Shown one piece after another: positions 1,945 to 39,911 of a stretch of 64,000 nt of DNA (position 1 is the stretch's first letter; each line of letters opens with the position of its first letter). The notes under the pieces were generated by a model. That model did no database searches, was not told where the DNA came from, and saw only the letters and a list, made by a program, of their open reading frames with translations. Location of the stretch: assembly GCA_013824165.1 (NCBI GenBank), contig PNNH01000067.1, positions 1-64,000 on the forward strand, written 5' to 3'. The DNA is from Methylibium sp. GTDB taxonomy: Bacteria > Pseudomonadota > Gammaproteobacteria > Burkholderiales > Burkholderiaceae_C. The translations under genes were made by a program, and so were the position numbers.

Positions 1945-4269
1945 ATGGACAACAGCAAGCCGCTGTCGCCGGCCGAAGCCGCTTTGCGCGATGCTGCGCT
2001 GGACTACCACCGCAGCCCGACGCGGGGCAAGATCGCCGTGACGCCGACCAAGGCCCTGTCCAACCAGCGCGACCTCTCGCTGGCCTACTCGCCCGGCGTG
2101 GCCTATCCCTGTCTGGACATCGAGAAGGACCCGGCGCTGGCCGCCGACTACACCTCGCGCGCCAACCTGGTCGGCGTGATCACCAACGGCACCGCGGTGC
2201 TGGGTCTGGGCGATATCGGCCCACTGGCGGCCAAACCGGTGATGGAAGGCAAGGGCTGCCTGTTCAAGAAGTTCGCCGGCATCGACGTGTTCGACATCGA
2301 GCTGGCCGAGCGCGACCCCGACAAGCTGGTGGAGATCATCGCGGCGATGGAGCCGACGCTGGGCGGCGTCAACCTCGAGGACATCAAGGCGCCGGAATGC
2401 TTCTACATCGAGCGCGAGCTCAAGAAGCGCATGAACATCCCGGTCTTTCACGACGACCAGCATGGCACGGCCATCATCTCCAGCGCCGCACTGCTGAACG
2501 GGCTGGAGTTGGTGGGCAAGGACATCGGCCAGGTGAAGGTGGCGGTGTCTGGCGCCGGCGCGGCGGCGATTGCCTGCCTGGACGTGATGGTGGGCCTGGG
2601 CGTTGCGCGCGAGAACGTGTTTGTGTGCGACTCCAAGGGCGTGATCCATGCCGAGCGCGCCGATGCGGCCAAGCTCGATGAATCCAAGCGCCGCTACTGC
2701 CAGACGACCAGCGCGCGCACGCTGGCTGATGTGGTGGCAGGCGCCGATGTGTTCCTGGGCTGTTCGGCGGCCGGCGTGCTGTCGGCCGAGATGGTGAAGA
2801 CCATGGCCGACAAGCCCATCATCCTGGCGCTGGCGAATCCCGAGCCTGAGATTCGCCCCGAGCTGGCCAAGGCGGCGCGGCCGGATTGCATCATCGCCAC
2901 CGGCCGCTCGGACTATCCCAACCAGGTCAACAACGTCCTGTGCTTCCCCTACATCTTCCGCGGCGCGCTCGATTGTGGCGCCAGCAAGATCACCGAGGAA
3001 ATGAAGCTGGCCTGCGTGCGCGAGATCGCCGCATTGGCCAAGGCCGAGACCAGTGATGAAGTGGCGGCTGCCTATGCTGGCGAAGAGCTGTCCTTCGGTC
3101 CCGACTACCTGATCCCCAAGCCGTTCGATGCGCGCCTGATCCTGCGCATCGCACCAGCGGTGGCGCAGGCGGCGGCGGACTCCGGCGTGGCCACGCGGCC
3201 TATCCAGGACATGGCGGCCTACCGCCAGTCGCTGGAGCGCTTCGTCTACCAGACCGGCATGCTGATGCGGCCGGTGTTCAATGCTGCCAAGGCCGCGGTC
3301 GGGCAGGGCCAGCCGGCGCGCGTGATCTTTGCCGAGGGCGAGGACGAACGCGTGCTGCGCGCTGTGCAGGTGGCGCTGGACGAGCGGCTGTGCCAGCCGA
3401 CGCTGATCGGCCGCCCCGAGGTGATCGCAATGCGCGTCAAGCGCGCCGGTCTGCGCCTCAAGCTGGGCGAGGACGTGGCGGTGATCGACCCCAATCGCGA
3501 TGAGCGCTTCCGCCAGTACTGGGAGACCTACCACCAGGTGATGGGCCGCAACGGCGTCACGCCCGAGATGGCCAAGGCGGCGGTGCGCCGCTCCAACACC
3601 ACCATCGGTGCGCTGGCCATCAAGCTGGGCCATGCCGATGCGCTGATCTGCGGCATGGTGGGCCGCTTCGAGCAGCATCTGGACCATGTGAGCGACCTGA
3701 TCGGTTTGAAGCCCGGCGCTCGCAACTTTGCGACCGTGAACGCGCTAATGCTGGATCAGATGACGCTTTTCGTCACCGACACCTTCGTCAACGATGCGCC
3801 CGACGCCGAGGCCCTGGCCGAGATCGCCGGTATGGCCTGCGACGCGGTGCGCCGCTTCGGCCTGCCGCCCAAGCCGGCCTTCGTTTCACACTCCAACTTC
3901 GGCTCCAGCAAGCGACCCTCGGCGTTGAAGATGCGTCGCGCCTACGAGCTGTTCTCGGCCGCGCATCCGGACATCGAGTGCGACGGCGAGATGAATGGTG
4001 ATGCCGCGCTGTCGGCTGCAGTGCGCGAGACCTATCTGCCCGGCGGGCGGCTTCAAGGCGCGGCCAACCTGCTGGTGATGCCTAGCCTGGATGCGGCCAA
4101 CATCACCTTCAATGTGCTGAAGATCAGTGCCGGGCAGGGCGTCACCGTCGGGCCCATCCTGCTGGGTGCGGCCGCGCCTGTGCACATCCTCACGCCGTCG
4201 GCGACGGTGCGCCGCATCGTCAACATGACGGCGCTGGCCGCGGCCGACGTGTCAGCAGCACGCGGCTGA
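1945..4269 (+). CDS. maeB: NADP-dependent malic enzyme with phosphotransacetylase-like C-terminal domain
   Basis: Oxidatively decarboxylates malate to pyruvate, producing NADPH. The 774-residue protein is the long MaeB form: malic enzyme N-terminal domain (about 10-150, with YSPGVAYPC and the catalytic lysine region), NAD(P)-binding domain (about 160-400, with the [12 protein letters not shown] motif) and a phosphate acetyltransferase-like regulatory domain (about 440-765). In the known family the last domain mediates acetyl-CoA regulation and does not catalyse phosphotransfer. A good ribosome site (CAGGAGA) precedes the ATG at 1945. It stands alone between the pgk-maeB repeat region and the palindrome before pyk. 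Confidence 0.97.
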
Positions 4270-17023: not shown

Positions 17024-17186
17024 GGGCGACGCTGAACAAGTCCCCGCGACGCGGCGCGCCCTGGTTTGGGATGAACTGCCAGGCGCAAATCCTCGCCGTA
17101 GCTTGGGCTACGGCGAGGATTTGCAACACAGCAGATCGCCCAAAGCAGGGATGCGCCGTGCGCGAGGGACTTGTTCAGCGTTGCCC
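17024..17186. mobile_element. MITE-like palindromic element upstream of tsaB
   Basis: A 163-base element with 21-base terminal inverted repeats matching at 20 positions (17024-17044 and 17166-17186), and inner arms that remain complementary almost to the centre. The innermost pair, from GCAAATCCTCGCCGTAGC on, is perfect. There is no transposase frame and no obvious target duplication. The right end stops 15 bases before the tsaB start, so a folded transcript would reach close to the tsaB ribosome site. The form is that of a non-autonomous miniature transposable element. Confidence 0.75.
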
Positions 17187-17201: not shown

Positions 17202-17915
17202 ATGACTGTTCTGCTGGCCCTCGATAGCTCGACCGACACCCTGACCCTGGCCCTGAGCGGGCCGCAGGGTCTGCGGGTCTACAACGGCGAGGGCGGCGCG
17301 CGGGCTTCCGAGCTCATGGTGCCGCAGGCGATGGCCTTGCTGGCGGCTGCAGGGCTGAGCCTGGCGCAGGTGGATGCAATCGCTTTCGGCCGCGGCCCCG
17401 GCGCCTTCACCGGCCTGCGCACCGCCTGCGCGGTGGCTCAGGGCCTGGCTTTCGGTGCCAACAAGCCGGTGCTGGCGATCGACAGCCTGATGCTGGTGGC
17501 CGAGGACGCACGTCTGCAGGCCCAGGAGCAGGGGCAGGTCTTGCCGGATACGCTGTGGGTGGCCATGGATGCCCGCATGGGTGAGGCCTATGCCGCAGCC
17601 TACGCTTGGCGCGCAGGCGTCTGGCACACCGTGGCCGAGCCGGCGCTTTACAGCCCGCAAGCGCTGCTGGCGCTGTGGGCCGAGGCGCCGCAGGCGCTGT
17701 GCGGATCGGCGCTGACTGAGTTCCCCGAGCTGGCCGGTCTGGCGCCGCTGAGCTGGCCGCAGCAGCGGCAGCGCGGCGCTGCGCTGGCGGCCCTGGCGCG
17801 TCAGGCCTGGGAGCAGGGCCTGCAGATGGACGCCGCTGAAGCTTTGCCGCTGTATGTGCGCGACAAGGTGGCCCAGACCACGGCCGAGCGCCTGGCCGCC
17901 AAGGCTCAGGGCTGA
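17202..17915 (+). CDS. tsaB: tRNA threonylcarbamoyladenosine biosynthesis protein TsaB
   Basis: Non-catalytic partner of TsaD in t6A37 formation. The 237-residue protein has the ASKHA-fold start LALDSSTDTLTLAL and the conserved GRGPGAFTGLRTACAVAQGL segment. It begins a tight run tsaB-rimI-UDG: rimI starts five bases after the tsaB stop. A palindromic repeat sits immediately upstream and may influence expression. TsaC/Sua5 of the same pathway is encoded just before, so t6A genes are nearly clustered here. Confidence 0.94.
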   Translation: MTVLLALDSSTDTLTLALSGPQGLRVYNGEGGARASELMVPQAMALLAAAGLSLAQVDAIAFGRGPGAFTGLRTACAVAQGLAFGANKPVLAIDSLMLVAEDARLQAQEQGQVLPDTLWVAMDARMGEAYAAAYAWRAGVWHTVAEPALYSPQALLALWAEAPQALCGSALTEFPELAGLAPLSWPQQRQRGAALAALARQAWEQGLQMDAAEALPLYVRDKVAQTTAERLAAKAQG

Positions 17916-19261: not shown

Positions 19262-21637
19262 ATGAGGCACGCACCCGACGCCGCACCTGATGGGTCGGTT
19301 TTCGAGTTGCTGCCAGCCGCCTTCGCGCTGCTGTCTACACAGGGGCAGGTGCTGCAGGCCAATGCCTTGTTCCGCGCCATGGCCGGGTCCGCGGCTGAGC
19401 GCGGCGCCTGGCTCAGCCCCGAGTCCGCCGCGGACCTGCTGACGGCCTTGGCCGCGCCACAGAGCTTCACGCTGGAGTTGCAGGCCGCCGCATCCGAGAC
19501 CTGGCTGGCCTGCCAGGGGCGTTGGGACGCAGCGCTCGCGGCCCATGCCTGCCTGTGGCAGCCCATCGCCGGCGCCACGCTGGCGGCGCAGCAGGCCATG
19601 GCCGATCAGGTGGCGCAGTTCCGCCTGCTGGCGGACAACGTGCCGGCGCAGATCGCCTTCTACGAGACGCAGGGCTTTCGCTGCCAGTTCGCCAACCGCG
19701 CCTATGCCAGCGCCTTCGGGCTCGACCCGCAGAGCATCCTCGGGCGCACCTTTACGCAGGTGATCGGCGAGACCGCCGCGGCGCTGATCCAGCCCTCGGT
19801 GGATCGCGTGCTGCAGCAGGCCACCGCGGTCAACTATGTGCGTGAACTGCACGGGCAGGATGGCAAGCCGCGCTGGATCGAGGTCAGTCTGCTGCCGCAT
19901 CTGGACGACGACAGCAAGGTGGCGGCGGTGTTCGTGCTGATCAACGACATCACCCGCCACCGCCTGGCCGACGCGGCAGTGCGCGAGTCCGAGCTGCGCC
20001 TGGCCAAATTCATGCAGGCGACCGTGGAGGGCATCGTCTTCCACCACGAGGGAATCATCACCGACGTCAACCCGCCGCTGTGCGAGTTGTTGGGCTACAC
20101 GCAGCAGGAACTGGTGGGCCGCCACGCGCTGGGCTTCGTCGCCGAGGACGAGCTGAGCAAGGTGGGCCGCGTGATGGCCGAGCAGCGCGAGCTGCGCTAC
20201 GAGACCGCCGTGGTGCGGCGCGACGGCGCGCGCATCCCGGTCGAGTTCATCGTGCGCACCCTGGAGCGCGACGGCGAGAGCCTGCGCATGACCATCGTTC
20301 GCGACATCCGCGACCGTATCGCCGCACAGGCGCGCATCCATCACCTGGCCCAGCACGACGCGCTGACGCAGCTGCTCAACCGCGCCTCCTTCATGGACCG
20401 GCTGGAGCCGGCGCTGGCCCACGCCCGGGCTGCGGCCCAGCCGCTGGCGCTGCTGTTCATCGACCTGGACAACTTCAAGCGCGTCAATGATTCGCTGGGT
20501 CATCTGGAAGGCGACAAGGTGCTGACCACGGTGGCCGAGCGCATCAGCGACTGCGTGCGCACCACCGACCTGGTGGCCCGCTTCGGCGGCGACGAGTTCG
20601 TCGTGCTGCTGCGCGATGTGCGCGGCCGCGAAGATGTGATGGTGGTGCTGCGTGCGCTGCTGTCGGTGGTCGAGGTGCCGGTGCGCGCCGACGGCCGTCA
20701 GCTCTCGGTCACGCCCTCGATCGGCGTGGCGATGTTCCCCGAGCATGGCGATACCGCGGCCGATCTGATCCAGCATGCCGACACCGCGATGTACCTGGCC
20801 AAGGCCAAGGGCCGCGCCAACTACCAGTTTTTCGAACCGGTGCTGGCCAGCCGCGCCTATGCCGATCTGGTGCTGGAGGCCGAGCTGGCCGAAGCGCTGA
20901 CGCATGGCCAGTTCCGCCTCTACTACCAGCCGCAGATCAGCGCAGCCGACGGCAGCTTGCGCGGCGCCGAAGCGCTGCTGCGCTGGCAGCACCCGACCCG
21001 CGGCCTGCTCACGCCCGAGGCCTTCATCGATGTGGCCGAGCGGCACCGCCTGATGGTGCCGCTGGGCGAATGGGTAATGCGCGAGGCCGCGCGCCAGACC
21101 CGGCTGTGGCACAAGAGCGGCGTGGCGCCGGTGCCGATCGCGGTGAATCTGTCGGCCATGCAGTTCCGGCTCAGCAGCTTTGCCGACACCGTGGCCGATG
21201 TGCTGGACGCCGCCGATGTGCCCGGCGCCTGGCTGGAGCTGGAGCTGACCGAGCGCATGCTGATGGACGATGTGGAGGCCGCGCCGGCCACGCTGGCCAG
21301 CCTGCGCGCGCTGGGCCTGTCGATCTCTGTCGACGATTTTGGCACCGGACACACATCGCTGGCGCACCTGACCCAGCTGCCGCTGGACAAGCTCAAGATC
21401 GACCAGGGCTTTGTCGCGCGCCTGCCCGGCGACGAGGCGGCCGCCACCATCACCCGCGCCATCGTGCAGATGGCCACCGGCCTGCGCCTGGCTGTCATCG
21501 CCGAAGGCGTGCGCACGCCGCAGCAGCGCGATCTGCTGGCGTCCTGGGGTTGTGATGCCTTTCAGGGCGAGCTGATCTCGCCGCCGCTGTCGGCGCAGGA
21601 TTTCGAGGCCTGGTTGAAGAGCCGGCCGCCACGCTGA
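19262..21637 (+). CDS. PAS-GGDEF-EAL cyclic-di-GMP signalling protein
   Basis: A 791-residue cytosolic protein: N-terminal PAS-like segments (about 12-110, 118-238 and 243-355), a GGDEF domain (about 365-525) with an intact GGDEF motif near residue 441, and an EAL domain (about 535-785) with EALLRW, DDFGTGHTSLAHL and KIDQGFV. Both diguanylate cyclase and phosphodiesterase residues look intact, so it could be bifunctional, with PAS input selecting the activity. It follows the glycosylase gene by 19 bases and has no membrane segments. A membrane-bound paralogue lies 1.2 kb downstream. Confidence 0.93.
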   Translation: MRHAPDAAPDGSVFELLPAAFALLSTQGQVLQANALFRAMAGSAAERGAWLSPESAADLLTALAAPQSFTLELQAAASETWLACQGRWDAALAAHACLWQPIAGATLAAQQAMADQVAQFRLLADNVPAQIAFYETQGFRCQFANRAYASAFGLDPQSILGRTFTQVIGETAAALIQPSVDRVLQQATAVNYVRELHGQDGKPRWIEVSLLPHLDDDSKVAAVFVLINDITRHRLADAAVRESELRLAKFMQATVEGIVFHHEGIITDVNPPLCELLGYTQQELVGRHALGFVAEDELSKVGRVMAEQRELRYETAVVRRDGARIPVEFIVRTLERDGESLRMTIVRDIRDRIAAQARIHHLAQHDALTQLLNRASFMDRLEPALAHARAAAQPLALLFIDLDNFKRVNDSLGHLEGDKVLTTVAERISDCVRTTDLVARFGGDEFVVLLRDVRGREDVMVVLRALLSVVEVPVRADGRQLSVTPSIGVAMFPEHGDTAADLIQHADTAMYLAKAKGRANYQFFEPVLASRAYADLVLEAELAEALTHGQFRLYYQPQISAADGSLRGAEALLRWQHPTRGLLTPEAFIDVAERHRLMVPLGEWVMREAARQTRLWHKSGVAPVPIAVNLSAMQFRLSSFADTVADVLDAADVPGAWLELELTERMLMDDVEAAPATLASLRALGLSISVDDFGTGHTSLAHLTQLPLDKLKIDQGFVARLPGDEAAATITRAIVQMATGLRLAVIAEGVRTPQQRDLLASWGCDAFQGELISPPLSAQDFEAWLKSRPPR

Positions 21638-21653
21638 TTTCTACAATCGGGGC

Positions 21654-22775
21654 ATGAGCATTCACAACGGCCAGCAGGCCGACCAGGCCTTGCCGGCCCT
21701 GATCCGGCGCGAGATCGAGTCAGCCGGCGGCTGGCTGCCCTTCGACCGCTACATGGCCCTGGCCCTGTACGCCCCCGGTCTGGGCTACTACGCCAACGAG
21801 CGACAGAAATTCGGCCTGATGCCGCAAAGCGGCTCCGACTTCGTCACCGCGCCCGAACTGTCGCCGCTGTTCGGCCAGGCGCTGGCTGCGCAGCTGCGCC
21901 AGGCGCTGGACGCCACCGGCTGCGACGAGATCATCGAGTTCGGCGCCGGCACCGGCGCGCTGGCCGAGCAGCTGCTGCAGGCGCTGGGCGAGCGCATCCG
22001 CCGCTACCGCATCGTCGACCTGTCCGGCACGCTGCGCGCGCGCCAGACCGAGCGGCTGGCCGCCTGGGCCGGCAAGGTGGAATGGCTGGATGCGCTACCC
22101 GATCAGTTCAGCGGCGTGGTGATTGGCAACGAGGTGCTGGACGCAATGCCGGTGCAGTTGATCTACTTCGACGGCCAGCAGTGGCAGGAGCGCGGCGTGG
22201 TCTGCGCCGATGACGACCATGCGTTTGCCTGGAGCGACCGGCCCAGCCCCCTGCAGCCGCCGCTGGAAGTGGCCGACGCGCGCCTGCACTACCCGCCCGG
22301 CACCGTCACCGAGCTTCATGCACAGGCCGAAGGCTTTGTGCGCACGCTGGCCGCACAGCTGCAGCGCGGCGCCATCTTCCTGATCGACTACGGCTTCCCC
22401 GAGGCCGAGTACTACCACCCGCAGCGCCACGGCGGCACGCTGATGTGCCACCACCAGCATCGGGCCGACCCGGACCCGCTGCAGCTGGTGGGCCAGAAGG
22501 ACATCACCGCGCATGTCAACTTCACCGGCATTGCGCTGGCCGGGCAGGACGCCGGCCTCAGCGTGCTGGGCTACACCAGCCAGGCGCACTTCCTGCTGAA
22601 CTGCGGCCTGGCCGGGCTGATGGAGCAGGCCGATCTGCCGGCGCGCGCGATGGCGCACAAGCTGATCCAGGAGCACGAGATGGGCGAGCTGTTCAAGGTG
22701 ATCGGCTTCGCGGTCGACGGCCAGGAATTCGACGCGCTGGGCTTTGCGCGCGGCGATCGCAGCCACACGCTCTGA
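21654..22775 (+). CDS. SAM-dependent methyltransferase, MidA/NDUFAF7 family
   Basis: A 373-residue class I methyltransferase of the family that includes human NDUFAF7, an arginine methyltransferase for complex I assembly; the bacterial role is not settled. Motifs seen are the N-terminal FDRYMALALYAPGLGYYAN, SDFVTAPELSPLFG and the SAM-binding EFGAGTGALAEQLL, plus IGNEVLDAMPV. It starts 16 bases after the GGDEF-EAL gene. Its last 18 codons, stop and 13 further bases are repeated at the end of the next gene. An NDUFA9-like protein is encoded at 33008, hinting at complex I functions. Confidence 0.9.
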   Translation: MSIHNGQQADQALPALIRREIESAGGWLPFDRYMALALYAPGLGYYANERQKFGLMPQSGSDFVTAPELSPLFGQALAAQLRQALDATGCDEIIEFGAGTGALAEQLLQALGERIRRYRIVDLSGTLRARQTERLAAWAGKVEWLDALPDQFSGVVIGNEVLDAMPVQLIYFDGQQWQERGVVCADDDHAFAWSDRPSPLQPPLEVADARLHYPPGTVTELHAQAEGFVRTLAAQLQRGAIFLIDYGFPEAEYYHPQRHGGTLMCHHQHRADPDPLQLVGQKDITAHVNFTGIALAGQDAGLSVLGYTSQAHFLLNCGLAGLMEQADLPARAMAHKLIQEHEMGELFKVIGFAVDGQEFDALGFARGDRSHTL

Positions 22776-22788
22776 GTTGATCGGCGCC
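22719..22788 (+). repeat. Direct repeat A, copy 1 (native midA 3' end)
   Basis: Seventy bases covering the last 18 codons of the methyltransferase gene (ending GQEFDALGFARGDRSHTL), its TGA and 13 bases beyond. The copy at 25686-25755 is identical at 64 of 70 positions by my alignment. Confidence 0.9.
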
Positions 22789-22880
22789 TGTTTCAATCGT
22801 TGAAGCGCCCAGTGACTGATCCGGCTTCAGCGCGGATAGGATGGGGCAACAGCCCGATTCTTGAACGAGGCCCTCCGGAG

Positions 22881-25742
22881 ATGGCAACGCGAGTAGACGT
22901 GAGCGGAATGACTCAAGTGAGCATGGCGGGGCACGACGCGCCCGGCGAGCGTGCGTCCTGGAGCGATCGCCTGCGCTTGTTCACGGTCGTCCTGCTGGGC
23001 GTCGGGCTGACATTGTTGGCTGCAGGCAGCCTGCGTCAGGCCGAGCAGTTGCGCTTGAAGGAATACCGCCGGGCCGCCACTGATCGCGTGGTCCAGGCCT
23101 TCGAGCAGGAGCTGACCCGCATGCTGGAGGCGCTGCGCACCGCAGCGCTGATGCTGGAGGTGCAGCCGGCGTTCACGCGCGAGCAGTTCAACGACGCGAT
23201 GCGCATGCTGGTGGAGGGGCAGCTGAGCATCAACGTCGTCGAGTGGCAGCCCATCGTGGCGGCCAGGGACCTCTATGCCTTCCAGGCTGAGGCGCGCCGC
23301 AGCGGCTTTCCCGACTTCGAGGTCATCGAGCCGGACGGCAGCGGAAAGGGCTGGCGTCCGGTTGCAGGGCGCGACCCCTATGTGGTGGTCCGCTATGCCT
23401 GGCCCGAGCAGTACCAGACCGTCGGCTACGACATGAGCTTCAGCCCGGAGCGGATGGCCTCAAAGCTGCAGTCTGCCGCGACGGGCGTCCCAACGGCTTC
23501 AAGCCCGTTCGAGTTCATGAAAGAGGGCAAGGTGCACTCCGGCAGCATGGCTCTTGCGATCTCGGCGACGGTGTTTGGGCCTGACCGTCAGGCGCGCGGT
23601 TACCTGGCCGCCGTGGTCGACTTGCCCACCTTGTTCCAGCGTTCCACCGAGCAGGCCCGCGAGGCCAGGCTGGACCTGCAGGTGTTTCCGACGGCCCCGG
23701 TGGACGCGGCAGCGTTCTTTTCCGCACCTGCCTCCGCAGCGACACCGGTGCTTGCGCAGCTGACAGCGCTGGAGCGGCAGCAGCTGAGCGCGACGCTCGC
23801 TGTTGCCGGCCAGCAGTGGCGCGTCCAGTTGCAGCCGGCTGCTGGGTTCTATGACGATGTTCAGCCGCAGCTGTCGCTGTGGCTTCTTGTGGCCGGTGGC
23901 CTGATGACCCTGCTGATGGCGCGCGCGGTGATGCTGGTGCAGGCCAGCCGCCGCCGCATCGAGGGTGCCGAGCGGGCTGCCACGCGCGCCAATGAGGCCT
24001 TGCGGGTCCAGAGCGGGCGCCTGCTGGAGGCTCAGCGCATTGCCCATCTCGGCAGCTGGCAGGTGGATTTGCAGGCATCCACGATCAGCTGGTCGCCCGA
24101 AGTCTGCGCGCTGCTGGGCTTGCCGCCAGATGGCGCCGCCCGCCCGCTGAATGACCAGCGCGCGCATTTCAGTGCCGACAGCTGGGACCGCTTCGAGGCG
24201 GCCTTGCGTGCTGCTGCGGCTGAGGGCACCGAAGCGTTCGAGTTGGAGCTGGCATGCGCCCAGCCCGATGGACGGCGCAGCTGGCTGCTGGCGCGAGGTG
24301 CGGCACGGGCCGAGGCTGGTCCCGTGGCGCCCCAGGTTCACGGGGTTGCCATGGACATCAGCGCCCGCAAGCAGGCAGAGCTGGAGATCGAGAGCCTTGC
24401 GTTCACCGACACCCTGACCGCGCTGCCCAACCGGCGGCTGTTGATCGATCGGCTGGCCCACGCCTTGGCGTTCTCCGAGCGCCACGAGCGCTTTGGGGCG
24501 ATGCTGTTTGTCGATCTCGACGGCTTCAAGAAGATCAACGACACCTTTGGCCACCAACGTGGCGACCTGCTCCTGCGGCAGGTGGCGCAGCGCCTCACAG
24601 CCGCGATGCGCAAGGGGGATACCGTTGGCCGACTCGGCGGTGACGAGTTCCTGGTGCTGCTGGAAGACATTGGCAGCAGCGCGCCGGAGGCGGCCGCACA
24701 CGCCGGCATTGCTGCCAACAAGCTGCTGGACATCCTCAGGGCTCCTTACGCGCTGGGCGCTGACCAGCACAGCTGCACCGCCAGCATTGGCGTGGCGGTG
24801 TTCGGCGCCGAGCGGCAGCAGCCCGAGGAACTGTTGCGCCGCGCTGATCTGGCGATGTATCGAGCCAAAGCCGCCGGGCGCAATGCCGTGTGCTTCTTCG
24901 ATCCCTCCATGCAGGAGGCTATTCTGGCTCGGGCGCAGCGGGAGAACGAGCTCCGCGAGGCCTTGCGCGCCGATGGGCTGCGCCTGCACTACCAGCCTCA
25001 GGTCGACGCCTCGGGTCGCATCACCGGCGCGGAGGCCTTGCTGCGGCTGCAGCTTCCCGATCGAGGCCTCGTGGGCCCCCAGGAGTTCATTGCCCTGGCT
25101 GAGGAAACCGGGCTCATCGCACCGCTGGGCGCCTGGGTGCTGCAGACGGCGGTGGCGCAGCTTGCGGCCTGGTCGCTGCGCCCCGAACGCCGTGAGCTGG
25201 GTATTTCGGTCAATGTGAGTCCGCGCCAGTTTCGTTCGGCAGAGTTCCTGCCGGGCCTTGAGTTGCTGCTGGCTGCAAGCCCCATCGCGCCCCAGCGGCT
25301 GACGCTGGAGCTCACCGAAGGCGTGCTGTTGGACGATCTCAACGATGCCGCCGCCAAGATGCGCCGAATCGCGGCGCTCGGCGTGCGCCTCTCACTCGAC
25401 GACTTCGGAACTGGCTTCTCTTCGCTGGCCTATCTGAAGCGCCTGCCGCTGGCCGAAGTCAAGATCGACCGGAGCTTCGTGGAGGACCTCGTCGCGTCTC
25501 CCGATGACAGAGCCATCGCCCAGATGATCATCGTGCTCGGGGGCAGTCTGGGCCTGGACGTGCTGGCTGAAGGGGTGGAGCAGGCAGCCCAGCGGGACCT
25601 GTTGCTGTCGCTGGGCTGCCAGCATTTCCAGGGCTACCTGTTTGGGCGGCCCATGGAGGTGGACGCCTTGGAGAGCATGCTCGATGGCCAGGAATTCGAC
25701 GCGCTCGGCTTCACCCGCGGCGACCGCAGTCACACGCTCTGA
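22881..25742 (+). CDS. CHASE-PAS-GGDEF-EAL membrane cyclic-di-GMP signalling protein
   Basis: A 953-residue membrane sensor. A first membrane segment (about 30-50) and a second (about 333-355) enclose a periplasmic CHASE domain with the typical VVEWQPIV and GYDMSFSPER-type elements. Then come a PAS domain (about 375-495), GGDEF (motif intact near residue 585) and EAL (EALLRLQ near 717, DDFGTGFSSLAYL, KIDRSFV). The ATG at 22881 is chosen; the frame is open from a TTG at 22800. The last 18 residues, GQEFDALGF(T)RGDRSHTL, are not EAL sequence but a copy of the neighbouring methyltransferase tail. Confidence 0.9.
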   Translation: MATRVDVSGMTQVSMAGHDAPGERASWSDRLRLFTVVLLGVGLTLLAAGSLRQAEQLRLKEYRRAATDRVVQAFEQELTRMLEALRTAALMLEVQPAFTREQFNDAMRMLVEGQLSINVVEWQPIVAARDLYAFQAEARRSGFPDFEVIEPDGSGKGWRPVAGRDPYVVVRYAWPEQYQTVGYDMSFSPERMASKLQSAATGVPTASSPFEFMKEGKVHSGSMALAISATVFGPDRQARGYLAAVVDLPTLFQRSTEQAREARLDLQVFPTAPVDAAAFFSAPASAATPVLAQLTALERQQLSATLAVAGQQWRVQLQPAAGFYDDVQPQLSLWLLVAGGLMTLLMARAVMLVQASRRRIEGAERAATRANEALRVQSGRLLEAQRIAHLGSWQVDLQASTISWSPEVCALLGLPPDGAARPLNDQRAHFSADSWDRFEAALRAAAAEGTEAFELELACAQPDGRRSWLLARGAARAEAGPVAPQVHGVAMDISARKQAELEIESLAFTDTLTALPNRRLLIDRLAHALAFSERHERFGAMLFVDLDGFKKINDTFGHQRGDLLLRQVAQRLTAAMRKGDTVGRLGGDEFLVLLEDIGSSAPEAAAHAGIAANKLLDILRAPYALGADQHSCTASIGVAVFGAERQQPEELLRRADLAMYRAKAAGRNAVCFFDPSMQEAILARAQRENELREALRADGLRLHYQPQVDASGRITGAEALLRLQLPDRGLVGPQEFIALAEETGLIAPLGAWVLQTAVAQLAAWSLRPERRELGISVNVSPRQFRSAEFLPGLELLLAASPIAPQRLTLELTEGVLLDDLNDAAAKMRRIAALGVRLSLDDFGTGFSSLAYLKRLPLAEVKIDRSFVEDLVASPDDRAIAQMIIVLGGSLGLDVLAEGVEQAAQRDLLLSLGCQHFQGYLFGRPMEVDALESMLDGQEFDALGFTRGDRSHTL

Positions 25743-25755
25743 GTTGATCGGCGCC
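25686..25755 (+). repeat. Direct repeat A, copy 2 (tail of the CHASE-GGDEF-EAL gene)
   Basis: Second copy of the 70-base midA end, in frame at the 3' end of the GGDEF-EAL gene. Four of the five changed codons are synonymous; only Ala to Thr changes the protein. The 13 bases after the stop are identical in both copies. Confidence 0.9.
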
Positions 25756-25874: not shown

Positions 25875-26924
25875 ATGCAGAAGCAGACGACTCATCATCA
25901 TCAGCCGGGCCGGCATTCGGCCCTGGCAGCGTCCATTGCGCTAGCACTCACACTGAGTGCCTGCGGCGGCGGTGGCGGCGGCGCGGGCGACCCGGTGGTG
26001 CCCGGCCCTGACCCCAATCTCGGCAAGCTGTCGATCACCAGCAGCAACTACGTGGCGGTGGCGCAGACGGCGGTGTCGTCCTCGCTGTACTTCATGGACA
26101 GCGCCGAGCTGCTGGTCGGCGCGCAGGCCAGCGACGGCAAGGCGCCAACGCGCTTTGCGCTGGCGCAGCTGGATCGCCTGCCGGGCTGGTTCGCCAAGGG
26201 CGTCGGTTCGCCAGTTGTCACTGGTGCTGTGACCACGGTATCTGAAGCCTGTGCAGGCGGCGGCCGCATGGACATCAGCGTCGACGACAAGAACAACAAC
26301 GGTAGCTTTGACGCCGGCGATGCGATTGCCATCCGTGCGGTCAACTGCATCGAGAGCGGTTCCACCATGAATGGCGGCATGGAGATGGCGCTGACCAGCC
26401 TCACTGGCGTGTTCGGCTCCAGCAACTACACCGCGACCGTGACGATGCGCCTGGACAAGCTCACCGTGGTCACGGGGCAGGACACCGCCATCGGCAATGG
26501 CGAAATGCGCATGGACACGCGCGTCAGCGGCCCCTACAACTCTTCAGTCACCATCACCGTGCCCAGCTTCACCGTGGCCGGCACGCTGGGCGGCGTGAAC
26601 TACTCCAACTCGCTGGTCGGCTTCCAGCTGACGCTGGGCAAGGCGCCGGGTGGCACGCTCTACAACGTCAGCGTCAGCATCACTGGCGCACTGAGCGGCT
26701 CGATGATCGAGTCCAAGCAGATCAGCGTTGAAACCCTCGCACCGCTGGTTCGCAACTGGAGTGCTGTCGATCCGTCGACCGGCCAGCTGCTGATCAAGGG
26801 CGCGGCGTCCAGCCAGCTGCGCATCACCGCGCAGGCCGGCGGCATGGCTCTGCTGGAGTTGGATGCTGACGGCAACGGCGTGTTTGAGAGCTCGACCACG
26901 CGCCGCTGGAGCGATCTGCGTTGA
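25875..26924 (+). CDS. Secreted lipoprotein of unknown function with Asp/Asn-rich loop
   Basis: A 349-residue protein with a lipoprotein signal (LTLSAC followed by seven glycines and alanine). The rest looks like beta-sandwich sequence rich in Thr, Ser and Gly. A calcium-loop-like element, DDKNNNGSFDAGD (about residues 137-149), and a shorter DADGNGVF near the end resemble EF-hand or dockerin-type loops. The start is the ATG at 25875 with a GGGAGGAAA site. Its stop overlaps the next gene start by one base, so the two are probably made together. No named family recognised. Confidence 0.7.
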   Translation: MQKQTTHHHQPGRHSALAASIALALTLSACGGGGGGAGDPVVPGPDPNLGKLSITSSNYVAVAQTAVSSSLYFMDSAELLVGAQASDGKAPTRFALAQLDRLPGWFAKGVGSPVVTGAVTTVSEACAGGGRMDISVDDKNNNGSFDAGDAIAIRAVNCIESGSTMNGGMEMALTSLTGVFGSSNYTATVTMRLDKLTVVTGQDTAIGNGEMRMDTRVSGPYNSSVTITVPSFTVAGTLGGVNYSNSLVGFQLTLGKAPGGTLYNVSVSITGALSGSMIESKQISVETLAPLVRNWSAVDPSTGQLLIKGAASSQLRITAQAGGMALLELDADGNGVFESSTTRRWSDLR

Positions 26925-27784
26925 TGGTGGCCCGCTCAGCGTTGCTGAGCTTGCTGCTGGTCTGTGGCAGCGGCGGCGCCAATGCCGCTGCGGCCAGCTG
27001 CGCCGCACCTGAGCCTGGCACCGCGCTGTGGCTGGGCCACAGCCGCTGGGATGAAAGCGATGCGCAGGGGCGGCGCTTGCTGCGCGAATCCGGCACGCTG
27101 GCCGGCGCCAGGTTCGGCCTGGCGCTGCGCTGCGCGGGCTGGCACGGCGAGGCCGATGCCGGCTGGCGCGCCGGCCAGCGCGACTACCGCGGCCTCAGCA
27201 GCAGTGGCGCGGCCATTCGCACCCACAGCGACATCGAGGAGCGCAGCCTGCGCGTGAGTCTCTGGCGGCCGCTGTTGCCGCCATCGGGCGGCCGCACCGA
27301 GCTGGCGCTGGGGCTGCGCGGCGAGTGGCGCAGCCTGGACCGCGACCTGACCTCGGTGGGCCCTGTGCAGGGCTATCCCGAGCAACATCGGCAGGCAGCG
27401 CTGGCCCTCGGTCTGGCGGCGCAGCAGGGCAACAGCAGCAGCGCGCCAGCGGGCTGGCACTGGGGCGCCGAGCTGTGGCTGGGCGGCGGCCCGCGCGGCA
27501 CGGTGGATGTGCGCCTGCCCACGGCTGATGCAGCGCGGCTGCGCACCGGCCGCTCGGTCTTTGGCGAAGCCGCGTTGTCGCTGCGTTCGGCCAGCTTCGC
27601 GGCTGGGAATCGCCCGGCGGGCTGGGCGCATGAGCTGCGCCTGAGCGTGCGCGACGAACGCATCGCCGCCGGCCCCTCGGCGCCGCTGTGGCGGCACGGC
27701 GTGCTGGTGGGCTCGGCCTCGCAGCCCAGGCATCGGCTGGTCGATGCGGGCTTGCAGGCAACTGTGGTGTGGCGTTACCGATGA
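26924..27784 (+). CDS. Exported protein, possible small outer-membrane beta-barrel
   Basis: A 286-residue protein with a Sec signal peptide (SLLLVCGSGGANAAAA) and then alternating polar/hydrophobic segments of the beta-barrel kind (GARFGLALRCAGW, ELALGLRGEWRSL, AGWHWGAELWLGGG, GLQATVVWRYR). It ends in Tyr-Arg rather than the usual aromatic terminal residue. The ATG at 26924 overlaps the TGA of the lipoprotein gene. A lipoprotein plus a barrel made from one coupled message suggests a surface complex, but no function can be named. Confidence 0.6.
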   Translation: MVARSALLSLLLVCGSGGANAAAASCAAPEPGTALWLGHSRWDESDAQGRRLLRESGTLAGARFGLALRCAGWHGEADAGWRAGQRDYRGLSSSGAAIRTHSDIEERSLRVSLWRPLLPPSGGRTELALGLRGEWRSLDRDLTSVGPVQGYPEQHRQAALALGLAAQQGNSSSAPAGWHWGAELWLGGGPRGTVDVRLPTADAARLRTGRSVFGEAALSLRSASFAAGNRPAGWAHELRLSVRDERIAAGPSAPLWRHGVLVGSASQPRHRLVDAGLQATVVWRYR

Positions 27785-29855: not shown

Positions 29856-30066
29856 TCATCGCGCCCCACCATCAGCGCCTGCAAGCTGGCCGATCAGGCC
29901 ATGCGCTAGCGCTGCCGCACTGATGACGCCTTGATCGAGCGCCGGCAGGCAGCGCTGGTCGGCCAGCTGAGCCTCGGGGCCGGAGCCCAGGCTCTGATGG
30001 ATGTGGGTGTGCTCACGGGCGGCCAGTTCCGCCAATTCCTTGCAGTCGCTAGGCAGGTGCCAGCGA
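29856..30066 (-). pseudogene. Decayed duplicate of the cca 3' end
   Basis: On the minus strand this stretch encodes [18 protein letters not shown], then [15 protein letters not shown], then LADQRCLPALDQG and a tail ending GADGGAR before TGA. It matches the end of the intact cca gene at 31008 ([46 protein letters not shown]) with two in-frame deletions, of roughly 46 and 9 codons. It has no start. It lies in the same orientation as cca on the far side of the PEP-CTERM gene. Confidence 0.85.
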
Positions 30067-30247
30067 CTGGCTCGGTGCGTGCGGCGACGCCATCGAGCAG
30101 GGCATTGACGGCGTCCCCTACGGGCTGCTGGGCCTGGTGGCCACCCCTCGACTGAGTGCCCGTGACTGAGGGCTGGGCGGGTGGCTGCTTGTCGTCAATG
30201 ATGCGTCCCAGACCTCCTTCAACCGCATCCACGCAGGAACCCAAGAT

Positions 30248-30985
30248 ATGAAGCACCTTCTCGCCACCGCGCTGCTGCTGGCCTCCGGCTTTGCTCAGGC
30301 TGCACCGCTCCACGTGAATGCAGCCCAGTTCGTCGGGTTGAATGGCTTGTCTGTCTTGGATACGGCCGCAGGCAACAGCATTTTGGGCTTCACCGCCAAC
30401 AACAGTTTCAGCGTGGCCGACAACTTCCGGGTGAGCGGAAACGGTTGGCGCGTCAAGAGTGTTGACTTGTTTGCCTATCAAACCGGTGGCGATGGCTTCA
30501 GCTTCACCGGCGCAACATGGCAAATCAGGTCGGGGGGCTTGAATGGTGGGCTGGTGGTTGCCTCGGGCACCGAAGACGCTGTCAGCAATGGCGGCAGCGT
30601 CGGCTACCGCGTGACCGACACAACCCAGACGGCGACCAATCGCAATATCTATCGCATTGAGCTGGACATCGCTGACATCGATCTGCTTGCGGATGACTAC
30701 TGGCTCGTGTGGTCCTTGCAAGGTACATCCGCCTCGGGCCCGTTCGTGCCGCCGCTGTTGGATGAACAGGGGAATGCTCAGCAGGGCCCGGCGGGCGGCA
30801 ATTTCGCGCTGCTTCGCGACAGTGGCAGTCAGCGTACCGCCGAGTTGCCCTTTGTGCTGCATGGCGACTTGCTGGACCCCAGCAATACGGTTCCGGAGCC
30901 TTCAACGATCTTGCTGACCGCGTTTGCTGTGCTCGGCATGCTGTTCGCTGGTCGTCGACGCAGCCGTGGTCAGATGGCCGTCTGA
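30248..30985 (+). CDS. PEP-CTERM sorting domain protein
   Basis: A 245-residue exported protein: signal peptide (LLATALLLASGFAQAA), a beta-rich body, and a C-terminal PEP-CTERM signal made of VPEPS, a hydrophobic helix and the basic tail GRRRSR. Such proteins are recognised by exosortase EpsH/XrtA-type systems and linked to exopolysaccharide. The body has no named domain. A weak sigma-54-like sequence (TGGCTCG-N4-GTGC, 30068-30082) lies 166 bases upstream. The gene is bracketed by the cca relic and intact cca. The 181 bases before it contain no other gene. Confidence 0.87.
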   Translation: MKHLLATALLLASGFAQAAPLHVNAAQFVGLNGLSVLDTAAGNSILGFTANNSFSVADNFRVSGNGWRVKSVDLFAYQTGGDGFSFTGATWQIRSGGLNGGLVVASGTEDAVSNGGSVGYRVTDTTQTATNRNIYRIELDIADIDLLADDYWLVWSLQGTSASGPFVPPLLDEQGNAQQGPAGGNFALLRDSGSQRTAELPFVLHGDLLDPSNTVPEPSTILLTAFAVLGMLFAGRRRSRGQMAV

Positions 30986-31007: not shown

Positions 31008-32231
31008 TCAGACGGTATCGCTCAGCGCCTGCAACCTCGCCGCCTGTATCGCCCGCCCCACCGCCTGGCCGCTCAGGCCTTGCGCTAGCGCCGCCACACT
31101 GATGGCGCTCTGATCGAGCGCCTGCAGGCAGCGCAGGTCGGCCAGCCGCGCCGCATGCTGCGGATAGTCGCGGTCCTCCAGCCCCAGGCGCCCGCGGGCA
31201 TCGCATTCGCAGGCCAGCAGCAGCTGCTCGAAGCGCTCGGGGCGACGCAGCGCATCGCAGCGTTCCAACAGGCGCAGCCGCGCCTCGGGGCCGAAGCCCA
31301 GGCTCTGGTGGATGTGGGTGTGTTCCCGCGCGGCCAGCTCGGCCAGTTCCTTGCAGTCGCTGGGCACGCGCCAGCGCTCGCTCAGTTGCTGCACCAAGGG
31401 CACGCCGCGGCCTTCGTGGCCGATGTGGCGCGGCCATTGGTCGGCCGGCGTCAGGCCCTTGCCCAGGTCGTGGCAGAGGCAGGCATAGCGCACCGGCAAG
31501 GGCGCATCCATGCGCGCGCAGGCGTCCAGCACCATCAGCAGGTGCACGCCGGTGTCGATCTCGGGGTGGTGCGCCTCGGGCTGCGGCACGCCCCAGAGCC
31601 GATCGATGGCCGGCGCCAGCCGGGCCAGCGCGCTAGCTTCGCGCAGTACCTCAAGCATGCGCGAGGGGCGGGCTTCCATCAGCCCGCGCGCCACTTCCTG
31701 CCACACACGCTCGGCCACCAGTGCATCCACCTCGCCATTCGCCACCATCTGGCGCATCAGTGCCAGCGTCTCGGGCGCCACGCTGAAGTCGTGAAAGCGC
31801 GCAGCAAAGCGCGCCAGGCGCAGGATGCGTACCGGGTCTTCGGCAAAGGCGTCGGAGACATGGCGCAGCACCTTGGCCTGCAGGTCGCGCTGGCCGCCGT
31901 AGGGGTCGACGATGGCGCCGCTGTCGGGGTCCAGCGCCATTGCGTTGATGGTCAGGTCGCGGCGTGCCAGGTCTTGCTCCAGCGTCACCTCGGGCGCGGC
32001 ATGGAAGGCGAAGCCGTGATAGCCGGGCGCCGTCTTGCGCTCGGTGCGCGCCAGCGCGTATTCCTCATGCGTTTGCGGATGCAGAAACACCGGGAAGTCC
32101 TTGCCCACCGGCTGATAGCCCGCATCCTGCATGGCTTGCGGGCTGGCGCCCACCACCACCCAGTCGGTATCGCTGACCGCTCGCCCCAGCAGTGCATCGC
32201 GCACCGCGCCACCGACCTTGTAGATCTTCAT
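31008..32231 (-). CDS. cca: CCA tRNA nucleotidyltransferase / HD-domain repair enzyme
   Basis: Adds or repairs the 3' CCA of tRNAs. The 407-residue protein shows the class II nucleotidyltransferase head [10 protein letters not shown], the catalytic DTDWVVVG, the [12 protein letters not shown] motif and a C-terminal HD phosphohydrolase region (CHDLGKG, then EHTHIHQSL), which marks the long multifunctional gammaproteobacterial/betaproteobacterial form. The ATG at 32231 (MKIYKVGG) matches the family start. The GST gene stop lies one base upstream, so these two are probably co-transcribed. Confidence 0.96.
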
Positions 32232-32232
32232 C

Positions 32233-32904
32233 TCAGGGCGCGCTGCGGTACGGTTCCTCGAAGTCGAGGAAGTCGCGCTCATCCAGCGCCTGGGCCACGA
32301 AGGCCTTGACGCCGGCACTCTCGCGCACGCGCTGGACATAGGCCGCGGCGGCTGGCGACAGCGGCAGGGCGTAGGTGGCGATGCGCATCACCACCGGGGC
32401 GAAGAAGGCATCGGCGGCGCAGAAGGAGCCGAAAAGGAAGGCGTCGGGCGCAGCGGCGCTGAAGATGGCATCGATGCGGGCCAGGTCGGCGCGCAGGCGG
32501 TCGTCTTCGGCCACCAGCTTGGCGCCGATCTCGGGCAGGCTGGCTTCGATATTCATCGGGCACTGGTTGCGCAGCGCGGTGAAGCCGGCGTGCATCTCGG
32601 AGCACAGGCTGCGGGCGCGGCTGCGCTGGCGCGGCTCGCGCGGCCAGACGCCGCGGTCGGGGTGGCGGTCACTCAGGTGTTCGATGATGGCCAGTGTGTC
32701 CCACACGGCAAAGCCATCGTCCTCCACCAGCACCGGCACCTTGGCAGTGGGTGTGTAGGCGGCCAGCGCCTGGTAGAAGGCCGAGCCGGGCGTGAAGTCG
32801 AAGCGCAGCTGGCGCTCTTCGAAGGCGATGCCCAGCTGCGTCATCAACACCCAGGGGCGCATGGACCAGGACGAGTAGTTCTTGTTGCCGATGATCAGTT
32901 GCAT
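32233..32904 (-). CDS. Glutathione S-transferase family protein
   Basis: A 223-residue cytosolic GST. The N-terminal thioredoxin-like domain begins [17 protein letters not shown], where the serine is the likely glutathione-activating residue, and contains the cis-proline motif KVPVLVEDD and [15 protein letters not shown]. An all-helical C-terminal domain follows. It belongs to a common proteobacterial group of unknown substrate. It is the first gene of a probable two-gene unit with cca. Confidence 0.9.
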
Positions 32905-36033: not shown

Positions 36034-36628
36034 GGGAAATCCGCTGTCCGGGCCTCAGTCTGCCAGTGCCGCCTTGCCGCACGAGCGCGCCAGCCTGCGC
36101 GCCGAGTTGCTGGCCGCACGCCGGGCCTGGTTGGCTGGCAGTGCCGCACAGACCGCCGAGTCGAACCTGGCCCATCAGCTGGCCGAACTGCTGACGCAGC
36201 TTGAACCGCAATGCTTGGGGCTTTACTGGGCGCTTGAGGGCGAATTTAACGCAGCGGCTGCGGTGCTGGCCCAGCACTTCGAGCAAGTCCCTCAGTTCGC
36301 CTTGCCCTATGCCAAGCAAAGTGGTCGCGAGATGGTCTACCGGCGCTGGGATGGCGAGACGCCAGAGCTGAAAGACGAGTGTGGCATTCCCAGCGCCGCT
36401 GGTGCTGTGGTGGTGCCCGATGTGGTGCTGGTGCCTTGCGTGGGCTTCACGCGCGAGGGTTTCCGGCTGGGCTATGGCGGCGGCTATTTCGACCGCTGGC
36501 TGGCGGCGCACCCTGGCGTCACCAGCGTGGGCCTGGGCTGGAGCGTCAGCGAGGCGCAGTTCGCGGTGGAGCCGCATGATCAGGCGCTGACGCTGATCCT
36601 GACCGAGCGCGAGCTGATCGCGCCCTGA
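36032..36628 (+). CDS. 5-formyltetrahydrofolate cyclo-ligase, copy 1
   Basis: Converts 5-formyl-THF to 5,10-methenyl-THF using ATP. The 198-residue protein has the N-terminal basic helix LRAELLAARRAWL, an EFNAAAAVL region, and the nucleotide/folate motifs LVPCVGFTREGFRLGYGGGYFDR, which are canonical. Its ATG lies in the same CATG as the slt start on the other strand and has no ribosome site. A second full-length cyclo-ligase is encoded at 39312. This copy is the closer to the usual family consensus. Confidence 0.9.
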   Translation: MGNPLSGPQSASAALPHERASLRAELLAARRAWLAGSAAQTAESNLAHQLAELLTQLEPQCLGLYWALEGEFNAAAAVLAQHFEQVPQFALPYAKQSGREMVYRRWDGETPELKDECGIPSAAGAVVVPDVVLVPCVGFTREGFRLGYGGGYFDRWLAAHPGVTSVGLGWSVSEAQFAVEPHDQALTLILTERELIAP

Positions 36629-39311: not shown

Positions 39312-39911
39312 TTGGAGTTCGCCTTGGACCTGTTGAGCAATGACCGCGCCGCGCTGCGCCACAAGCTGATTCAGGCACGCCTGAATCTGCCCGACCGACT
39401 GAGCCTGGCCGAGCAGCTGCAAAGCGTGCTGCGAGTCTGGCTGGTGCGTCGCCCGGAGCTGACCATCGGCGCCTACTGGCCGATCAAGGGCGAGTTCGAT
39501 CCCTTGCCGGCGCTGTACCGCTGGAGCGAGGCGCAGGACGCCGACCGCCCGAGCCGAAAAATCGGCCTGCCCGTGGTCGACAAGACCCACGGCACCTTGA
39601 CCTTCCATGTCTGGTATCCGGGCTGTCCGATGGAAGAAGATGCCTATGGAATTCCCAAGCCCAAGGACACCGAAGTCTTCGAGCCGCAGCTGCTGCTGGT
39701 GCCCTGCGTGGGCTACGGTCCGCAGGGCCTGCGCCTGGGCTATGGCGGTGGCTTCATGGACCGCACGTTGGCCGGGTTGAAGCCGCGACCCGCCACCGCC
39801 GGTCTGGGCTATGCGCATGGCTTTCTGCCGCTGCTCAAGGCCGAGGCCCACGATGTGCCGCTGGACGCGATGATCACCGAAGAAGGGGTGGTCTGGGATG
39901 TGAACGGCTAA
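39312..39911 (+). CDS. 5-formyltetrahydrofolate cyclo-ligase, copy 2 (divergent)
   Basis: A second 5-FCL-like protein of 199 residues with ALRHKLIQARLNLP at the N-terminus, IGAYWPIKGEFDP, and LLLVPCVGYGPQGLRLGYGGGFMDR. It differs from copy 1 in having Phe-Met in place of Tyr-Phe in the glycine loop and by a distinct middle region. No ATG is available; a TTG at 39312 or 39324 must be used. It precedes pepQ by 20 bases on the same strand. One copy may act on another folate or be specialised. Confidence 0.85.
   Translation: MEFALDLLSNDRAALRHKLIQARLNLPDRLSLAEQLQSVLRVWLVRRPELTIGAYWPIKGEFDPLPALYRWSEAQDADRPSRKIGLPVVDKTHGTLTFHVWYPGCPMEEDAYGIPKPKDTEVFEPQLLLVPCVGYGPQGLRLGYGGGFMDRTLAGLKPRPATAGLGYAHGFLPLLKAEAHDVPLDAMITEEGVVWDVNG

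Follow-up and report, generated by a model that had tools for sequence, protein, structure and literature searches.

A CHASE-GGDEF-EAL gene apparently inserted at the 3′ end of midA, and further copied gene ends, in a Methylibium genome

Structure of the midA locus

We analysed a window of 64,000 nucleotides from the draft genome of a Methylibium sp. (G000) against a collection of 250 family genomes, two of which belong to the genus: G000 itself and its sister G001, the one other genome of the genus available for comparison. These two (both drafts, of 123 and 190 contigs; the sister seems to be a MAG) are the only carriers of the arrangement described here. The window contains an intact midA homologue on the plus strand (21654-22775, stop codon at 22773-22775), recognised by its Methyltransf_28 domain (Pfam PF02636, E = 1.7e-59). 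A leader (22789-22880, plus strand), in which G001 has more than 100 extra bases, separates its copied end from a CHASE-PAS-GGDEF-EAL gene on the plus strand (22881-25742), whose last ~20 codons and stop are MidA-like. The start of this signalling gene was taken as the ATG at 22881; the longest open reading frame begins with a TTG at 22800. Its CHASE, GGDEF and EAL domains score above their Pfam cut-offs and PAS_3 just below its own. The GGDEF motif can be read from the translation, and the EAL columns that are invariant across 38 sequences are all present, as follows from the construction of that list. By its domains and conserved residues, the protein is predicted to be a CHASE-GGDEF-EAL enzyme of c-di-GMP metabolism. 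On the far side of the insert lie a lipoprotein-like gene (25875-26924, plus strand, reading frame open from 25845) and a further gene (26921-27784, plus strand), both without a Pfam match.

Upstream of midA, whose neighbours were also compared in relatives, stand three genes that we take from their sequences to be tsaB-rimI-udg, together with a different GGDEF-EAL gene. The latter, a PAS-GGDEF-EAL gene at 19262-21637 that is unlike the inserted one, lies directly upstream of midA, and a homologue occupies the same place in 30 of the 49 regions examined; midA in G000 is thus flanked by two c-di-GMP genes. Farther upstream there is a long imperfect palindrome (17024-17186, 80% over 168 aligned bases), just before the gene at 17202.

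According to the original prediction, the next gene ends with an in-frame repeat of the last 18 codons of midA, its stop and the 13 bases after it, altered mostly by synonymous changes. Both statements were confirmed: 64 of 70 bases are identical, and the 6 base differences leave 4 of the 5 changed codons synonymous. By BLAST the direct repeat extends over 75 bases at 90.7% identity (E = 1.9e-22). Copy 1 (22714-22788, plus strand) consists of the midA 3′ end, the stop and 13 further bases, and copy 2 (25681-25755, plus strand) of the MidA-like tail, its stop and 13 further bases, abutting the downstream flank. Beyond the shared bases after the stop, an extension of the repeat did not score above shuffled sequences, and a search of G000 at E ≤ 0.001 found no third copy. 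Chance similarity of the two tails was ruled out by the E-value, by the two copies returned from the genome search and by a survey of near repeats (see below) that gave 18 direct and 0 inverted rows.

Origin of the signalling gene and its tail

To which of the two genes does the shared end belong? MidA homologues in other contexts do not have unrelated C-termini, since all 30 MidA loci compared, drawn from G000, its sister and family genomes, encode a protein ending in GD[RC]...L. For GGDEF-EAL proteins we considered 79 other relatives among the best matches listed, after setting aside locus L054, which has the same tail and was taken as the sister's. None of the 79 carries GDR or GDC at the protein end, and their homology to the signalling protein stops at residues 925-942, the MidA-derived tail starting at residue 934. 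A tail native to EAL proteins was rejected because the motif is missing from all of these relatives and the homology ends where the tail starts. The fusion is in frame in both members of the genus, in keeping with the proposal that the MidA-derived tail is now part of the GGDEF-EAL protein.

We compared 48 midA regions from other genera, a few of which end early at contig ends. In two of them, G229 (L164) and G151 (L177), the genes directly after midA are homologues of the two that stand beyond the insert in G000. The identities are 41% (G229) and 54% (G151) for the lipoprotein-like gene and 36% and 44% for the next one, and the first start codon follows the midA stop after 107 bases in G229 and 192 bases in G151. 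Because the spacers between midA and the lipoprotein-like gene in these genomes do not align with either flank above shuffled sequences, the insert-free site is established by gene order and not at the base level. In their gene order, the two relatives lacking the signalling gene show the junction that had been anticipated.

The best match to the signalling protein lies downstream of midA in 0 of the 48 regions. Its first 517 residues match 12 of the 250 family genomes at E ≤ 1e-20, G000 and G001 included, and the best match outside the genus has 37% identity and is found in G008, 830 kb away from midA; the 248 family genomes from outside the genus contain no close copy of the gene. A separate second copy of the local midA end was likewise not found in the 48 regions, where separate matches never exceed 44/70; the top second match of 45/70 overlaps the midA end itself (33 bases upstream). 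G001 carries the same insertion in frame, with a signalling protein 96% identical to that of G000, and the gene and both its flanks run collinearly in the two genomes at about 92-96% identity. The native MidA tail and the gene order support an insertion of the signalling gene at the 3′ end of midA with that end copied on the far side, as originally predicted, and the gene appears to be foreign to this site.

A tandem duplication of a midA segment, with a later deletion joining a GGDEF-EAL gene to the second tail, could also be envisaged, given that the PAS-GGDEF-EAL gene directly upstream could place such a gene before a second midA. However, over the GGDEF-EAL part the inserted gene is only ~41% identical to this neighbour, and its CHASE domain is missing there; we regard such a history as most improbable. 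The same ~41% identity largely refutes the idea that the inserted gene is a duplicate of the upstream one. A donor in which midA is followed by the signalling gene was not found in the sampled family genomes, a sample that cannot exclude one. As to plasmids, none of the 5000 best records covers 80% of the protein and 4999 of them are below 60% identity; the end of the signalling gene, searched as DNA, matches 4 plasmid records at 72-75%.

Fate of the two tails

An AlphaFold2 model of the last 274 residues, built from 38 sequences, has a confident EAL domain (mean pLDDT 91.4). Model residues 260-264 and 266-274, which are within the MidA-derived tail, have pLDDT values below 50 and no secondary structure, at a place where the alignment is almost depthless. 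The model hints at a disordered tail, and because of this predicted disorder and of the residue changes in the tail of G001, we think that the tail is probably a passive scar or extension. A comparison of midA between G000 and G001 gives a dN/dS of 0.20; for the signalling gene, with the tail left out, the value is 0.14.

Within the repeat, 3 sites are informative two-against-two between the copies of G000 and G001, and all 3 are concerted (0 orthologous); upstream of the repeat, all 10 clean two-against-two sites group the orthologues. The copies of G001 are identical over 55 bases (34 coding, then through the stop), and beside this run there are 4 differences in 13 bases, all of which change residues (EFDAL to ASDGQ). 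In simulations without conversion, at least 3 concerted sites in 70 were obtained with p from 5e-5 to 1.3e-2 (five settings, branch divergences 3-12%). Because the tails share bases within a genome that differ between the genomes, gene conversion between the two midA tails is probable; its direction is a matter of inference. A GGCGCC is seen in both spacers, and a conversion tract ending there in G000 could account at once for the concerted bases and for the shorter stretch between midA and the signalling gene in this genome, which lacks more than 100 bases present in G001.

Could the likeness of the tails within each genome stem from two separate insertions instead? The tail pair of each genome does share its own bases just after the stop. 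Against this, the collinearity and high identity of the signalling gene and its flanks make one event the simpler account, and we find two insertions scarcely credible next to one insertion followed by conversion.

Copied gene ends elsewhere in the genome

Apart from these signs of conversion, the analysis goes beyond the first reading in that the midA event appears to be one of several of its kind. We surveyed 1,251,089 of the 4,708,395 bases of G000 (27%) for repeats with E ≤ 1e-8, at least 75% identity and a distance of 300-9000 bases; the sample is non-random, consisting of the window, picked by the midA finding, and of the low-numbered contigs C1-C11. Of the 18 direct rows in this 1.25 Mb, 10 represent eight 3′-end copies at seven genes, midA included. 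The remaining 8 (one in C2, one in C3, five in C4 and one in C8) were judged by eye to be internal repeats, paralogues or unclear cases and were not counted. The midA copy and the far one of two copies at an ABC transporter gene are shared with G001, and the other six are single copy there. A single copy together with contiguous flanks in G001 was seen at the polyA-polymerase and near ABC (ABC-left1) loci only; at the decarboxylase, riboflavin synthase, LysR and C10 loci the G001 site is not contiguous on both sides and provides the single copy alone. For the polyA-polymerase and C10 loci, the single copy was judged within the fetched G001 region. Extrapolated from this non-random sample, a genome may hold perhaps about 30 such scars.

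The polyA-polymerase case lies 5 kb from that of midA. An intact gene of the polyA-polymerase/CCA-adding family (31008-32339, minus strand) is separated from a decayed copy of its 3′ part (29886-30076, minus strand) by an inserted PEP-CTERM motif gene (30248-30985, plus strand), whose protein has no match in G001. The remnant aligns at 87.5% over 88 bases with 31065-31152 and at 85.8% over 113 bases with 31275-31386, with 122 bases missing inside. The ABC transporter gene (G000:C4:25816-34641, L219) has two stacked 3′-end copies. The near one flanks a glycosyltransferase gene and is absent from G001; the far one, common to both genomes, lies beyond genes for an M3 peptidase, ChrB, a chromate transporter and other ORFs, so that the scar limited to one genome is the nearer one. 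Compared with the intact gene, the near remnant is 98% identical over its first 54 bases and 85% over the next 117, a split that may point to conversion here too. Further copied ends were seen at four genes: a decarboxylase gene, where GtrA and glycosyltransferase genes lie in the insert; a riboflavin synthase gene, where the insert has a GntR-aminotransferase gene; a LysR gene, where it has a GNAT acetyltransferase gene; and one gene on C10.

In six analysed copies, the changes specific to the leftover are 51 synonymous and 77 nonsynonymous, against 28 and 9 specific to the intact gene; random single changes are expected to be 23-32% synonymous. These sums count the doubled polyA-polymerase row once and leave out midA and the C10 locus. 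The leftovers thus seem mainly to decay. In the midA leftover, which is translated, 4 synonymous changes and 1 nonsynonymous change are leftover-specific, numbers too small to interpret. The notion that the synonymous excess between the midA tails marks a foreign donor tail was dropped, as the other loci do not bear out such a rule.

For genomic islands, attachment at gene 3′ ends is common: the end of the target gene is rebuilt and a copy remains on the far side. It could accordingly be supposed that a mobile element used the repeats as attachment sites for site-specific integration at the midA 3′ end and later lost its recombinase. Unlike such islands, the loci described here display no integrase among the ORFs scanned and no shared attachment sequence. 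No recombinase domain was detected in 34 protein scans of inserted and neighbouring ORFs, and, read by eye, the targets have no common attachment core; the genes are unrelated, and the copied segments, being their ends, differ in sequence and length. We therefore consider site-specific integration very unlikely.

A model for the insertion

How could an incoming gene come to lie between a gene and a copy of that gene's end? With somewhat more confidence than doubt, we propose integration by one-sided homology to the gene's 3′ end, most likely through a single crossover, which would put a second 3′ end on the far side. A fragment carrying a midA 3′ end followed by the CHASE-GGDEF-EAL gene would have entered the ancestor of the genus and integrated by midA homology at just one side, most likely as a trimmed, re-circularised fragment in a single RecA crossover. 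The product would be an intact midA, the new gene, a second midA 3′ end and the old downstream genes. The new gene would have come without an end of its own, and the second midA end, by chance in frame, would have supplied its last ~20 codons and stop; gene conversion would afterwards have acted between the two tails. Gene 3′ ends would be the sites where most such insertions persist, since there the resident gene is left intact. The chemistry of the crossover and the donor are what we infer.

Divergence from G001 at the other loci bears on this model. In the intact LysR gene, identity to G001 falls from 92% in the gene body to 84% in the copied segment, as though recombination had brought in a donor end. 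No distant donor is visible at the polyA-polymerase and ABC loci, because the intact 3′ ends are not clearly more diverged from G001, and local duplication would fit equally well. The intact polyA-polymerase gene has 5/60 differences in each of its last two full blocks and 0-7 elsewhere, with 6 of the last 12 bases differing; the intact ABC 3′ end is 95% identical over 331 bases.

These two loci are where a different origin has to be weighed, namely the capture of a foreign gene at a break close to the midA 3′ end, with fill-in or replication template switching copying 75 bases on both sides (up to more than 300 at other loci); no homologous donor would be needed. Break repair with target duplication would yield the same final geometry, and it finds support in intact polyA-polymerase and ABC genes that are not clearly more diverged near the junction and in remnants whose last codons still resemble those of G001, unlike the new ones of the intact genes: the polyA-polymerase remnant retains LQALM.G, the intact gene ends in LQALSDTV, and the near ABC remnant keeps the G001-like last codon. 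On the other hand, 75 to more than 300 bases are in our judgement long for simple staggered ends, and at the LysR locus the intact gene does show more divergence in its copied part. Moreover, the accessible part of the literature examined offers no laboratory precedent for duplication by break repair, whereas single-crossover duplications have one (PMC3240628). We hold break repair to be unlikely, though a serious contender, and give crossover by one-sided homology only the measured preference stated above, because the divergence evidence splits by locus and the precedent reports low frequencies.

Comparison with known systems

The precedent is single-crossover insertion-duplication by trimmed, re-circularised DNA in E. 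coli. In its accessible text, 14 sequenced clones had duplications of 109-950 bp, the events were rare (about 4e-9 per recipient), a linear variant was judged too rare to shape E. coli genomes, and the one-sided linear reaction was said usually to come with a deletion (PMC3240628). As there, the insert at midA lies between a gene and a partial direct copy of the gene's end, and an insert-free site is recognisable, by gene order for midA (G229, G151) and in the sequence of G001 for the polyA-polymerase and ABC-left1 loci. That system, as far as its description extends, was a laboratory plasmid at lacZ; the cases presented here are natural acquisitions at housekeeping genes, and at midA of G000, unlike in those clones, the copied end was captured as a protein tail (PMC3240628). 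The midA locus would work like single-crossover insertion-duplication, by analogy and not as a proven member.

Homology on one side with an illegitimate join on the other is also the mark of homology-facilitated illegitimate recombination (PMC3240628, PMC2884548). The products described in the accessible parts of these reports generally carry a deletion of similar size; no such deletion of recipient DNA is seen at the midA locus, where the midA end and two downstream genes are retained. Many small variable segments in E. coli have been attributed to illegitimate recombination, as the available text puts it (PMC2884548).

A further likeness is to arrays formed by displacement at gene ends. Rhs C-terminal displacement reportedly gives this picture, with new genes at the 3′ end and the old end downstream. 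For the T6SS effector-immunity arrays of V. cholerae, the accessible text proposes one-sided homology, with genes added at the 3′ end and the old gene or end shifted downstream (PMC5361080). The stacked scars of the ABC locus resemble these arrays in that the scar confined to one genome lies nearer the gene. Displacement arrays and Rhs, so far as those descriptions go, are toxin loci; the present targets are methyltransferase, polyA-polymerase, ABC transporter, decarboxylase, riboflavin synthase and LysR genes. In literature whose coverage left most subscription papers outside, we found no description of such scars at ordinary housekeeping genes.

Implications and scope

Most small bacterial gene gains leave no trace of their mechanism. 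Scars of the kind described would reveal which side used the resident gene, the order of arrival and, from the decay of the copied end, a rough age; in the case of midA the scar itself became part of a protein. The mechanism class is already known, and the wider value lies in the recurrence of the scars and in conversion between tails. Tentatively, and at somewhat less than an even chance, these elements may be joined into one reading: one-sided insertion at the 3′ ends of housekeeping genes would be a main small-scale acquisition route in this lineage, each arrival leaving a copied end on its far side, perhaps ~30 per genome, and stacking with the newest nearest. The copied end could be captured as a C-terminus and kept alike by gene conversion, and the remnants might be directional, roughly datable records of gene acquisition in bacteria generally. 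If this were general, a mechanism of gene acquisition free of integrases could be measured from genome sequences.

As a control we searched 553 kb around midA in 48 other genomes, where one weak candidate (L199), one pair lacking a gene end (L188) and one internal tandem array (L193) appeared. These pieces are mostly ~10 kb, so the rates are not strictly comparable with that of G000, and we make no claim that G000 is unusual. The candidate, a possible similar scar in another genus, pairs positions 3651-3731 and 4380-4460 of L199 at 78% identity over 81 bases, with the ends of two minus-strand ORFs nearby. In the window, a weaker direct repeat is present at 36423-36504 and 39691-39772 (76% over 85 bases, 3.3 kb apart).
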